Shown here one piece after another: positions 3,283 through 6,550 of a DNA stretch of 10,964 nt; position 1 is the first letter of the stretch, and each line of letters begins with the position of its first letter. Under the pieces are notes generated by a model, which saw nothing but the letters and a program-made list of their open reading frames with translations, had not been told where the DNA came from and ran no database searches. The translations under genes and the position numbers were made by a program. The stretch comes from an uncultured Rubellimicrobium sp. (GTDB lineage: Bacteria; Pseudomonadota; Alphaproteobacteria; Rhodobacterales; Rhodobacteraceae). The DNA is taken from NCBI GenBank assembly GCA_902805995.1, contig CADCUU010000462.1, forward strand, positions 1-10,964, read 5' to 3'.

Positions 3283-3978
3283 TCAGGCCGACATGCGGTT
3301 GTGCTTGCGCGCGACAAAGGTCTTCGCGGTCTCCACGGCCACGGCGGCGTCGCGGCAATAGGCGTCGGCACCGATCGCCCGGCCGAACTCCTCGTTCAGA
3401 GGGGCTCCGCCGACGAGCACGATGTACTCGTCGCGTATGCCCTTTTCCTTCATCGTGTCGATCACGACCTTCATGTATGGCATGGTGGTAGTCAGCAGGG
3501 CGGACATGCCCAGGATGTCGGGCTTCTCGTTCTCCAGCGCCTCGAGGTACTTCTCGACCGCGTTGTTGATGCCGAGGTCCACGACCTCGAAGCCCGCGCC
3601 TTCCATCATCATCGACACGAGGTTCTTGCCAATGTCGTGGATGTCGCCCTTGACGGTGCCGATCACCATCTTGCCGACGCGGGGGGCGCCGGTCTCCGCC
3701 AGGAGGGGTTTCAGGATGAACATCCCGCCCTTCATCGCGTTGGCGGCCAGCAGCACCTCGGGCACGAACAGGATGCCGTCGCGGAAGTCCGCCCCGACGA
3801 CGGTCATTCCTCCGACCAGGGCCTTGGTCAGGATGTCGTAAGGCGTCCAGCCGCGTTCGAGAAGAACGTTCACGCCTTCCTCGATCTCCTCGCGGAGACC
3901 GTCGTAAAGGTCGTCGAACATCTGCGCGACAAGCTCCTCGTCATCGAGCTCGCTCAGGATGATCTCGTCGTCAGCCAT
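3283..3978 (-). CDS. Corrinoid (cobalamin-binding) protein, B12 module of a split methionine synthase
   Basis: This cytosolic methyl-carrier binds cobalamin and shuttles methyl groups between a donor module and an acceptor methyltransferase. The 231-residue product has the two expected domains. Residues about 10-95 form the helical cap (B12-binding_2 type; ILTKALVGGMTVVGADF, VPEVLLAANAMKGG). Residues about 100-225 form the Rossmann-like B12 domain with D112-x-H114-x-x-G117 (KGDIHDIGKN), where His114 is the lower cobalt ligand, then SALLTTTM at 159-166 and GGAP at 190-193. The ATG at 3978 is preceded by GAGGAA and gives the family start (MADDEIILSELDDEEL); the frame stays open 24 codons further upstream, but that part is unlike the family. 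Proteins of this type are often labelled MtbC-like. In roseobacters they serve as the B12 part of a split MetH, a role supported here by the nearby Bmt-family gene at 5537-6550. Confidence 0.92.
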   Translation of the reverse strand: MADDEIILSELDDEELVAQMFDDLYDGLREEIEEGVNVLLERGWTPYDILTKALVGGMTVVGADFRDGILFVPEVLLAANAMKGGMFILKPLLAETGAPRVGKMVIGTVKGDIHDIGKNLVSMMMEGAGFEVVDLGINNAVEKYLEALENEKPDILGMSALLTTTMPYMKVVIDTMKEKGIRDEYIVLVGGAPLNEEFGRAIGADAYCRDAAVAVETAKTFVARKHNRMSA

Positions 3979-4099
3979 GGGAATTCCTCGCGTGGGCGTT
4001 GCCGTCTGTCTGCGCCCAGGCCACGCCCGGGTCGCGGCGGATTGCGACACCCCCTGCCTCGCAACCGACCGCCCCGCAAGAGACCTCGTGTTCTAGCGC

Positions 4100-4127
4100 T
4101 TGCAGTGTTCGTGTTTTGTTCTAGAAT
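4100..4127 (+). promoter_or_regulatory. Candidate leaderless promoter of the radical SAM gene
   Basis: A -35-like TTGCAG (4100-4105, three of six matches to TTGACA) and a -10-like TAGAAT (4122-4127, five of six matches to TATAAT) are 16 bases apart. Counting from the -10 element, transcription would begin at about 4134, which is the A of the ATG. There is no Shine-Dalgarno sequence before this ATG, which fits a leaderless mRNA. The match is by eye; the -35 element is weak. Confidence 0.5.
4107..4121 (+). promoter_or_regulatory. LexA-binding SOS box (GTTC-N7-GTTC)
   Basis: GTTC-GTGTTTT-GTTC is an exact match to the direct-repeat LexA operator of alphaproteobacteria. It sits wholly between the -35 and -10 elements of the radical SAM gene, 12 bases before its ATG, where a bound repressor would block RNA polymerase. 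GTTCTAG also occurs at 4090-4096 and again at 4118-4124, overlapping the second half-site. Expected effect: repression in normal growth and induction after DNA damage. That is inferred from position and motif, not shown. Confidence 0.72.
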
Positions 4128-4133
4128 TCCGAC

Positions 4134-5219
4134 ATGGAGGACCAAACGCCCCGAGTATCCGCCGACCAACGAGCCGGCCGCGCCGCTGCCAGCAACGCCG
4201 CCGGCCGCTTCGATCCCTATGCGCGCGTCGGCTTCGACGATGGTTGGGGGAGAGAGGACGATCTGCCCGCTCTTCGCACCGAGGTGACGGAGGAGCGGCC
4301 GCGCAAGGTCATCACGACCAACGCCTCGCCCGACATTCCCTTCGACCGGTCGCTCAATCCCTATCGCGGCTGCGAGCACGGCTGCATCTACTGCTTCGCC
4401 CGGCCGAGCCACGCCTTCCTGGGCCTGTCCCCGGGCCTCGACTTCGAGACGAAGCTCATCGCCAAGCCGCAAGCCCCCGCCGCACTAGCGAGGGAGATCC
4501 GCGCAAAAGGCTACGCGCCCGCAGTCCTCGCTATTGGGACCAACACCGATCCCTACCAGCCTATCGAGCGCGACAGGCGGATCATGCGTGGTCTTCTGGA
4601 GGTGCTGGCGGCGCATGACCACCCGGTCGCGATCACCACCAAGGGCACGCTGATCGAGCGCGACATTGACCTCATCGCGCCCATGGCTGCCCGCGGACTG
4701 GCCCAGGTGGGTCTGTCCGTCACCACGCTCGACCCGAAACTGTCGCGCGCCATGGAACCTCGCGTCCCGTCGCCCGCGCGCCGCCTCGCCACGATCCGGC
4801 GGCTGTCGGAGGCGGGCATTCCGGTGCGCATCCAGGTCTCGCCGGTGGTCCCGGCCCTTACCGACCATGAACTCGAGGCCATTCTGGCCGCTGGGGCCGA
4901 AGCTGGCGCGCAAGCCGCGAGCATGATCGTCCTACGCCTCCCCCGAGAGGTGGCGGGCCTGTTTCGTGAATGGCTGGAGGAGCGTTTCCCCGACCGTGCG
5001 GTCCGCGTCATGAGCCGGGTGAGGGAGCTGCATGGAGGCCGCGACTACGACCCCGACTGGGGCACGCGCATGACGGGGCAGGGGGAATGGGCGCGCCTGA
5101 TGTCGGCGCGCTTCCGTGTGGCAACCCGCCGGCTCGGGCTAGACGGTCCGCTAGGTCACCTGCGGACGGACCTGTTCCAGGTCCCGAAGGACCCGGACCC
5201 TCAGCTTTCGCTGTTCTGA
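4134..5219 (+). CDS. PA0069-family radical SAM protein (spore photoproduct lyase-like)
   Basis: This 361-residue radical S-adenosylmethionine protein belongs to the PA0069 group related to spore photoproduct lyase. Its substrate is not known to me. The cluster motif is C80-x3-C84-x2-C87 (GCEHGCIYC), which ligates the 4Fe-4S cluster that cleaves SAM. The preceding FDRSLNPYRG and following FARPSHAFLG are typical of this family, as is the C-terminal end QLSLF. Downstream strands AIGTNTDPYQP, ITTKG, GLSVTTLD and RIQVSPVVP form the SAM-radical barrel. The ATG at 4134 has no ribosome binding site but lies where a leaderless transcript would begin. A LexA box in the promoter points to a DNA-damage role, which agrees with the lyase-like family. 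The last 19 bases overlap the 3' end of the convergent small gene. Confidence 0.9.
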   Translation: MEDQTPRVSADQRAGRAAASNAAGRFDPYARVGFDDGWGREDDLPALRTEVTEERPRKVITTNASPDIPFDRSLNPYRGCEHGCIYCFARPSHAFLGLSPGLDFETKLIAKPQAPAALAREIRAKGYAPAVLAIGTNTDPYQPIERDRRIMRGLLEVLAAHDHPVAITTKGTLIERDIDLIAPMAARGLAQVGLSVTTLDPKLSRAMEPRVPSPARRLATIRRLSEAGIPVRIQVSPVVPALTDHELEAILAAGAEAGAQAASMIVLRLPREVAGLFREWLEERFPDRAVRVMSRVRELHGGRDYDPDWGTRMTGQGEWARLMSARFRVATRRLGLDGPLGHLRTDLFQVPKDPDPQLSLF

Positions 5220-5434
5220 GGACGCGAGAGGCCGAGCTTCACGAGTTCGGGCAGCGCATCCAGCGGCAGGACGAAGCACACGTCCGAGAAGCCCTTGGAC
5301 ACGGGGATGGAGGACTCGAACAGGATCTCCGTCCCATCCGCGCTCAGCCGCGTGGTGACGCCCGCATTGACCTTACCGTAGCGACGACGGGTGTGGCCCT
5401 TCCGAAGGACCGTATGACCTTCCAATTGCATCAT
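5201..5434 (-). CDS. Small conserved-looking protein of unknown function
   Basis: A 77-residue cytosolic protein with no recognised family. It begins with two Met codons. The strong ribosome binding site AGGAG ends four bases before the first ATG and seven bases before the second (5431), so the second, giving 76 residues, may be the real start. The N-terminus is basic (LRKGHTRRRYGKV), the middle looks strand-forming (GVTTRLSADGTEILFESSIPV), and the end is hydrophobic and helical (FVLPLDALPELVKLGL) with a polar tail. There is no signal peptide or membrane segment. The gene overlaps the radical SAM gene by 19 bases tail to tail. It is on the same strand as the methyltransferase gene upstream, with a hairpin and a possible promoter of its own in the 102-base gap. 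The ribosome binding site is the main reason to believe it is real. Confidence 0.65.
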   Translation of the reverse strand: MMQLEGHTVLRKGHTRRRYGKVNAGVTTRLSADGTEILFESSIPVSKGFSDVCFVLPLDALPELVKLGLSRPQNSES

Positions 5435-5481
5435 TTCTCTCCTGGCACTGACCAGAAGAATATGGGGGCGGAGCGCCCCAA

Positions 5482-5510
5482 ATGTAAGTCCAGTCAGGGC
5501 GTTAGGTCAA
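5482..5510 (-). promoter_or_regulatory. Candidate promoter for the small gene at 5201-5434
   Basis: On the minus strand, TTGACC (5505-5510, five of six) is followed after exactly 17 bases by TTACAT (5482-5487, three of six). The predicted start of transcription is near 5475, about 41 bases before the ATG. A GGGGCG-CTC-CGCCCC inverted repeat at about 5465-5479 lies over that start point. The -10 match is poor, so this is tentative. Confidence 0.35.
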
Positions 5511-5537
5511 ATTTCTCGCGCGCCGCGCGAAGAATTT
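5509..5537 (-). terminator. Hairpin at the end of the methyltransferase gene, possible terminator
   Basis: An inverted repeat with 13-base arms (5509-5521 and 5525-5537) and a three-base loop matches at 11 of 13 positions; its core is a six-base GC-only-rich stem around CGCGCG. It starts inside the stop codon of the methyltransferase gene. On the minus strand it is followed by TTTGACC rather than a long T run, so it is a weak intrinsic terminator at best and may instead protect the mRNA 3' end. Confidence 0.4.
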
Positions 5538-6550
5538 CAGCCCCGTCCGCGCCGCCCGCCGCGCCGCGCCGAGGGCTGGTCCTCCCCGGTCCCGTCACTG
5601 GCCGAGGAGAAGCCGCCGAGCCGCTCCGCGATCACCTCGAGCGCCGGCCGATCACCGCGTGGACGGGTCTCCAGCGCCTCGCGCATGACCTTCAAATGGT
5701 CGGGCCGGGTCCCGCAGCAGCCGCCAATGATGGTCGCCCCGGCGTCGCGGGCCAGCACGGCGTATTCGCCCATCAGCTCGGGCGTGCCGTCGTAATGGAT
5801 ATGCCCGTCGTGGTAGCGCGGGATCCCTGCATTGCCCTTGGCGATGATCGGCCGCTCCGGCCCCGCCGCGGCAAAGCCCAGCACCGTCCGCAGGAGGTCC
5901 GACGCCCCGACGCCGCAGTTTGCACCAAAGGCCAGGGGTTGGCTGGGCAGCTTGCCCACCATCTTGACCATCTCGGCCGAGGTCAGGCCCATCATTGTCC
6001 GGCCCGCCGTGTCGAAGCTCATGGTGCCGCACCAGGGCATCCCGGCGAGGGCAAAGGCTTCGGCCGCGGCCCTGAACTCCTCGGCGGCGCTGATCGTCTC
6101 GACCCAGAGCACGTCGGCGCCACCTTCCTTGAGGCCTTCCGCCTGCTCGTGGAACATTTCCACGGCGCTTTCGTGGGTCAGGGTGCCCATGGGCGACATG
6201 ATCTCTCCGGTGGGGCCCACGTCGCCTGCCACGACGACCGGCCGCCCGGCCTTGTCGGCCACCTCTCGCCCGATCTCGGCCGCGATGCGGTTCAGCTCCC
6301 GGACGCGTCCCTGTGCGCCATGCAGCTTGAGCCGCGAGGCGTTGGCGCCGAAGCTGTTGGTGAGGAACAGATCGCTCCCCGCATCCACCCAGCCCTGGTA
6401 CAGCGCGCGGATGCGCTCAGGATGATCCACGTTCCACATCTCGGGCGCGTCGCCCGCGGTCAGGCCCATGTTGAACAGGTTCGTCCCCGTCGCGCCATCC
6501 GTGAGGAGCCAGTCGCGGGTTTCGAGCAGGCGGGACAGGGCGTCAGTCAT
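5537..6550 (-). CDS. bmt: Homocysteine S-methyltransferase (Bmt family), methyl-acceptor module of a split methionine synthase
   Basis: This zinc enzyme moves a methyl group to homocysteine to make methionine. The 337-residue barrel has DGATGT at 18-23, LTNSFGAN at 63-70, GDVGPTGE at 109-116, and the three zinc-binding cysteines C212 (GANCGVG) and C278-C279 (GGCCGT). It is usually named betaine-homocysteine methyltransferase. In roseobacters, however, genes of this type have been assigned as the homocysteine half of a methionine synthase split into separate proteins. The corrinoid protein at 3283-3978, about 1.6 kb away on the same strand, fits that reading. The C-terminus (about 315-337) is an acidic linker followed by an Arg/Gly-rich tail ([10 protein letters not shown]) outside the catalytic fold. 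The ATG at 6550 is preceded by GAGG with a spacing of nine bases. Methyl donor specificity cannot be decided from the sequence. Confidence 0.9.

Follow-up and report, generated by a model that had tools for sequence, protein, structure and literature searches.

The DNA analysed here, referred to below as the window, is a stretch of 10,964 nucleotides from an uncultured Rubellimicrobium sp. (contig CADCUU010000462.1), and we focused on the 35 bp at positions 4100-4134, which end on the first base of a gene encoding a radical SAM protein of the PA0069 family. On the plus strand this region reads, in order, TTGCAG (4100-4105), a T, a direct repeat of the form GTTC-N7-GTTC (4107-4121), TAGAAT (4122-4127), TCCGAC and the ATG (4134-4136). 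The repeat, GTTCGTGTTTTGTTC, is composed of GTTC at 4107-4110, seven further bases and GTTC at 4118-4121, and it occupies the 16-bp spacer between TTGCAG and TAGAAT. A sequence-only reading of this DNA had placed a LexA box in exactly this spacer, and direct reading of the letters confirms it. The A of the ATG (4134) is the seventh base past the -10 element TAGAAT, and the six bases separating the two contain no Shine-Dalgarno-like (SD-like) stretch. In its strict form, GTTC-N7-GTTC (hereafter the strict box) occurs once in the whole window. The features under study are the following:

4100..4105, plus strand: -35 element TTGCAG, read from the sequence; the logo of 69 orthologues has TTG here (T 0.94, T 0.77, G 0.80)
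4107..4121, plus strand: predicted LexA operator GTTC-N7-GTTC in the promoter spacer; same orientation in 83/91 loci, either orientation in 87/91
4122..4127, plus strand: -10 element TAGAAT abutting the operator; logo T 0.77, A 0.96 and, at the sixth place, T 0.77
4134, plus strand: predicted transcription start at the first base of the ATG (leaderless), from the spacing
4134..5219, plus strand: PA0069-family radical SAM protein of 361 aa; NF033668, PF04055 and CX3CX2C at residues 80-87

As far as sequence can tell, this site taken singly proves little. The strict box was present in 45 of 200 shuffled versions of the window, with a mean of 0.28 per shuffle, and the window's genome, a 3.0-Mb draft of 504 contigs that is 85% complete, contains 64 strict matches as against 49 for the reversed pattern. 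Both results favour an alternative in which the GTTC repeat arose by chance and the gene is either constitutive or under another regulator. Moreover, a sigma-70 consensus scan of positions 3900-5500, requiring at least 9 of 12 bases, returned no promoter. Since the lone site is compatible with chance and no consensus promoter is found, the comparison of orthologues is decisive, and our promoter reading consequently relies on the logo of 69 orthologues and not on the consensus scan.

The window's order was taken as Rhodobacterales, where NF033668 matches were found in 167 of 196 genomes; among the best 80 of at least 589 matches, the closest named relative of the window gene is that of Rubellimicrobium mesophilum (82% identical). 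We assembled 91 loci, comprising the window and 90 others (the 30 best matches and 60 more, 56 of these picked for further genera), and counted the strict box from -150 to +30 relative to the expected start. Scanning close orthologues, the check that the sequence-only reading had set for itself, found the forward box in 83 of the 91 loci and a box in either orientation in 87. Forward boxes reached 5.1 per kb in this interval and 0.012 per kb in the remainder of these loci, an enrichment of about 428-fold, and when spacers of 3 to 12 were compared, a spacer of 7 occurred in 83 loci and any other in at most two. In a separate collection of named records (the best 80 of at least 589 matches), 76 of 80 loci carried the strict box, 75 forward and one reversed, while other loci of the class carried it in 27 of 30 cases and, in another set (L319-L346), in 26 of 28. 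No strict box was found within 300 bp upstream of five PA0069 loci from outside the order (L345, L346, L102, L119 and L120). Thus, across these sequences the box is conserved far beyond chance, and both its local density and its restriction to a spacer of 7 argue against a chance repeat. Four loci of one genus (L016, L017, L029 and L208) lack the forward box and carry a reversed one directly before the ATG, as though the operator had arisen there anew. A Ruegeria record (L066) is built likewise, with GAAC-N7-GAAC, a few A-rich bases and the ATG.

The comparison with more distant relatives points in the same direction. Of 20 loci belonging to other classes of the same phylum, none had the strict alphaproteobacterial box within 300 bp upstream, and 15 had the LexA box of the E. 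coli type, CTGT-N8-ACAG, in perfect form. Actinomycete relatives carried GAAC-N4-GTTC in two of three loci. On this evidence, PA0069 is kept as a target while the LexA motif itself changes between lineages. That other classes have their own type of LexA box at this gene is a further argument against the chance alternative, which we regard as extremely improbable. Searches of plasmids and phages returned plasmid or chromid copies of the gene and partial viral matches (nine records, none covering 80% of the query).

We then considered where the box lies relative to the start codon. Using the in-frame ATG nearest to +27, the distance from the first base of the box to the ATG was 26-28 bp in 69 of the 83 loci with a forward box (hereafter the 69 loci) and exactly 27 bp in 50, although this choice biases the count favourably, together with those given below for the named collection, the loci outside the order, mmcB, TANNNT, SD-like sequences and the base before the ATG. 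The unbiased count, accepting an ATG at +26 to +28 in any frame, gave 70 loci in frame and none out of frame. The logo of the 69 loci displays TTG at -35, a T preceding the box and TAnnnT immediately past it. Within the separate collection, records belonging to Rhodobacterales by name had a distance of 26-28 bp in 24 of 28 cases, and the PA0069 locus of P. denitrificans (L370) has a box 27 bp before an ATG. The same geometry was seen in a contig named Enemella evansiae (L060, JAFKDC010000016.1), whose PA0069 is Rhodobacterales-like and 65% identical; as we take E. evansiae to be an actinobacterium, the assembly is perhaps mislabelled or mixed. Searching the 196 genomes with a pattern that combines the box, [CT]ANNNT, five to seven bases and ATG (the module) returned 119 matches in 100 genomes, compared with six for the pattern read backwards. 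Of these matches, 83 were placed at PA0069, and three more proved on reading to be PA0069 as well (L315 by eye, L388 and L389).

Initiation at the A of the ATG would predict a pyrimidine before it, and a C or T was indeed found there in 54 of the 69 loci, compared with 11 of 24 orthologues from outside Rhodobacterales in which over 42 bp separate the box and the ATG. SD-like sequences, defined as tetramers 4-16 bases before the ATG, were present in one of the 69 loci and in 19 of these 24 far-box controls. Fixed spacing, the pyrimidine before the ATG and the rarity of SD-like sequences together support a leaderless mRNA. The earlier expectation that transcription would begin on the A of an ATG lacking a ribosome-binding site is therefore in agreement with the spacing in the window, with its lack of SD-like bases and with the geometry of the orthologues.

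This geometry is not general to SOS genes, since lexA, recA, uvrA and ruvC all differ from it. In the window's family or order, lexA had a strict box in 24 of 30 loci, reversed in all 24; for recA, two of 30 loci were truncated, and of the 28 that could be read 19 had the box, 18 of them reversed. Most of these lexA and recA boxes are found 36-128 bp ahead of candidate start codons, although some alternative starts are closer. For uvrA the strict box was present in 27 of 30 loci, 78-99 bp before the last candidate ATG. The ruvC gene had no strict box within 300 bp in any of 30 loci and therefore served as a negative control. We read the lexA, recA and uvrA promoters as leadered: they share the operator of PA0069 but differ from it in distance and, for lexA and recA, in orientation. 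The window's own genome encodes one lexA (G000:C278), with TTGACA and a GAAC-N7-GAAC starting 46 bp before its ATG, and the membership of the PA0069-type gene in the SOS response, as first proposed from the window alone, is supported by this lexA with its own box together with the boxes of the orthologues. In the same genome, a second strict GTTC-N7-GTTC (L214:439-453) follows closely on the 3' end of lexA.

The comparison thus establishes, at the level of sequence, the operator, its place in the promoter, its fixed distance to the ATG, the rarity of SD-like sequences and the presence of lexA. Based on these features, we consider it very probable that the 35 bp at 4100-4134 constitute a LexA-occluded, leaderless SOS promoter of the PA0069-family gene. 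Our model suggests that LexA would bind the direct repeat between the -35 and -10 elements and thereby block RNA polymerase. DNA damage would lead to RecA filaments and to LexA cleavage, which would allow transcription to start from the A of the ATG. The resulting mRNA, whose 5' end would coincide with the ATG, would be translated without a leader or a ribosome-binding site, and the gene would consequently be induced by damage.

Several further observations, in addition to the shuffling, genome and consensus-scan results and to the bias in choosing the ATG, weigh against this model. Four of the 91 loci (L158, L011, L027 and L192) contain one-mismatch forms of the box but no strict copy, forward or reversed, and recA was not recovered in the window's 85%-complete draft. 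Twelve of the 83 forward boxes lie 31-45 bp from the ATG, six of them with an SD-like sequence. Only 41 of the 69 loci have a full TANNNT with its end 4-8 bases upstream of the ATG, or 55 if C is allowed first. The SD measure itself is weak, as uvrA, which we took as leadered, has an SD-like sequence in only 8 of 27 loci, and 15 of the 27 have C or T before the ATG.

The leaderless part of the model has its own competitor, in which SOS control is real but the mRNA carries a short leader; the true start codon would then lie downstream, and the locked ATG would mark the region of transcript initiation. This is favoured by the first ~14 residues of PA0069, which are poorly conserved and have low model confidence, and by the finding that exactly one in-frame start codon is present between the box and the invariant Arg25 in only 40 of 83 loci. 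It is opposed by the frame of the ATG at +26 to +28 noted above (70 loci in frame, none out of frame) and by the window itself, where the ATG at 4134 is the sole in-frame ATG, GTG or TTG from the preceding stop to about base 4235. We therefore consider a short leader unlikely and retain the leaderless promoter as the better account.

Outside Rhodobacterales the box often takes up a second register. In 82 named or class loci, nearly all from Alphaproteobacteria and one labelled actinobacterium, the box-to-ATG distance peaked at 38-40 bp (34/82), with 4/82 at 26-28 bp and eight without a distance. Where the distance is 37-42 bp (38 loci), 33 loci have TTG as the first three bases of the box's N7, as against 7 of the 69 Rhodobacterales loci; 28 have a TANNNT whose end lies 4-8 bases upstream of the ATG, four have an SD-like sequence and 33 have a C preceding the ATG. 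The simplest reading is that these loci would also be leaderless, with the operator one helical turn (about 12 bp) further from the ATG, over the -35 element instead of in the spacer. On this reading, the position of the start codon would be kept while the register, orientation and even type of the operator vary, which suggests selection for leaderless translation of these repair proteins during damage.

The module is also associated with a second gene. In Rhodobacterales, mmcB (PF06319; L391-L420) had a strict box in 27 of 30 loci, with the ATG at 26-28 bp in 26 of these 27; none of the 26 has an SD-like sequence and 22 have a pyrimidine before the ATG. Hence mmcB shares with PA0069 the box, the 26-28 bp spacing and the lack of an SD-like sequence, although the protein differs. 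It was not found in the window's own draft genome. From the 36 module matches outside the PA0069 placements, we examined 29, which comprised the three PA0069 genes mentioned above, ten MmcB (L308, L311, L374-L376, L378-L380, L386 and L387; three assigned by Pfam, four by position in a hidden Markov model and three by eye), one AlkZ-like, one endonuclease-III-like and one TcmP-like protein, and 13 that were short or unassigned. The AlkZ-like glycosylase gene (PF06224; L371:313-1500, minus strand) was seen with the module in one genome. The endonuclease-III-like and TcmP-like proteins (L300 and L317) lie behind the module in single genomes and were assigned by eye. These results lead us to favour, by a modest measure, the idea that Alphaproteobacteria have a leaderless SOS branch, made up of PA0069 in much of the class, mmcB in Rhodobacterales and occasional others such as the AlkZ-like gene, with the operator either in the spacer or about 12 bp upstream over the -35 element.

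What, then, would this promoter control? The window protein matches NF033668 with 498.2 bits (cut-off 360; residues 15-361) and also PF04055, and its cluster motif CX3CX2C, formed by C80, C84 and C87, is kept in 43 of 43 aligned members. The closest solved fold is that of spore photoproduct lyase (SPL), in a fold-search list that lacks some families and in which absence is uninformative; in the PDB, no SPL chain was matched by sequence (E up to 10) or by profile (E up to 1). The gene could therefore encode a genuine SPL that repairs 5-thyminyl-5,6-dihydrothymine in non-sporulating bacteria, as the literature name splB suggests. However, TIGR03886, the SPL family model, scored the window protein at 12.7 bits against a cut-off of 437.55 (E 0.052), and TIGR04070 was not listed for it at E up to 1, with a weak match in 32 of the 43 members. 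The SPL relay is absent too. In SPL, C141A inactivates the enzyme in vivo and Y99F stops the regeneration of SAM (PMC3742179), in B. subtilis numbering. In the PA0069 alignment, no cysteine column beyond the cluster three exceeds 13/43 as a counterpart of the H-atom donor C141, although the donor can be positioned elsewhere, as with C74 in the SPL of Clostridium acetobutylicum (PMC5368176). Immediately following the third cluster cysteine, where SPL has Tyr99, 36 of 43 members carry Phe, the window protein among them, and seven carry Tyr. We thus judge a genuine SPL improbable.

In short, the description of the protein as spore-photoproduct-lyase-like stands for the fold and fails for the Cys/Tyr relay, which is not conserved. 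PA0069 shares with SPL the fold, the CX3CX2C motif and the Tyr before the third cluster cysteine; because it lacks the conserved Cys-Tyr relay, we regard it as a relative of SPL and not as a demonstrated SPL. A weaker proposal, to which we give even chances, is that PA0069 may be an SPL-fold radical SAM protein acting in the repair or tolerance of nucleic-acid damage through a reaction different from that of SPL. One PA0069 copy outside the 43-sequence alignment (L315) has CEHDCIDCF instead of CEHGCxYC[FY], the otherwise invariant Tyr being replaced by Asp.

Two further features lie upstream of the promoter:

3283..3978, minus strand: corrinoid (B12-binding) methyltransferase partner protein, the divergent neighbour, given for context; the library scan was run on 3283-3984, with two extra codons
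4042..4064, no strand assigned: intergenic inverted repeat TTGCGA-N11-TCGCAA, then CCGACC; loose form in 29/91 loci

The divergent corrinoid gene was found, by a loose peptide motif, in 83 of the 91 loci. As even its loose form occurs in only 29 of the 91 loci, we rejected the inverted repeat as part of the SOS promoter; it probably belongs to the divergent gene and is perhaps a regulator site of this methionine-cycle gene. The PA0069 gene is flanked, all on the minus strand, by DUF1638 (2101-2667), the corrinoid protein (3283-3978) and a betaine-homocysteine-methyltransferase-like gene (5537-6550), a combination that we take to resemble a split methionine synthase set.

The conservation of the operator in several forms places PA0069 among the steadier SOS targets and recommends it as a candidate for a new DNA-damage reaction, carried out by a radical SAM enzyme without the SPL relay. 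If the leaderless reading is true, a set of SOS repair genes would bypass ordinary ribosome recruitment, linking DNA damage with leaderless translation.

The LexA regulons of P. aeruginosa and M. tuberculosis include PA0069 and Rv2578c, respectively. Our searches found no paper linking PA0069 with radical SAM, PA0069 with LexA or Rv2578c with LexA, and none, among titles and the openings of abstracts, describing leaderless SOS promoters in Alphaproteobacteria. LexA control of splB was predicted in alpha- and beta-proteobacteria by Sanchez-Alberola et al. in 2012 (PMC3323433), who included P. denitrificans and R. sphaeroides among the species analysed and presented it as the first evidence for SOS control of a photoreactivation enzyme. 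By its description, this splB belongs to the same gene group, with the same operator type in alphaproteobacteria, and we infer that it corresponds to PA0069 in every species. SplB/COG1533 has likewise been listed as an SOS member in several phyla, with other LexA motifs and for a broader COG (PMC8565304). SOS membership of PA0069/splB is consequently not new, having been predicted in the former study in agreement with the latter. The parts of PMC3323433 that cover splB mention neither a leaderless mRNA, nor the operator register, nor the missing SPL residues. The main text of PMC6473078 contains no photolyase or radical SAM, and the passages considered from PMC12700426 no splB, radical SAM or leaderless. 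For mmcB, SOS regulation is known from Caulobacter, where the protein is described as a PD-(D/E)XK endonuclease (PMC9578287). A parallel to the proposed translation is lexA of M. tuberculosis, an SOS gene shown experimentally to be translated from its transcription start (PMC2897130); it differs from PA0069 in gene, phylum and operator, and the sections describing it do not give the operator's place in the promoter. Compared with these systems, the leaderless operator-in-promoter design, with its two registers and with mmcB as a second gene, looks new.
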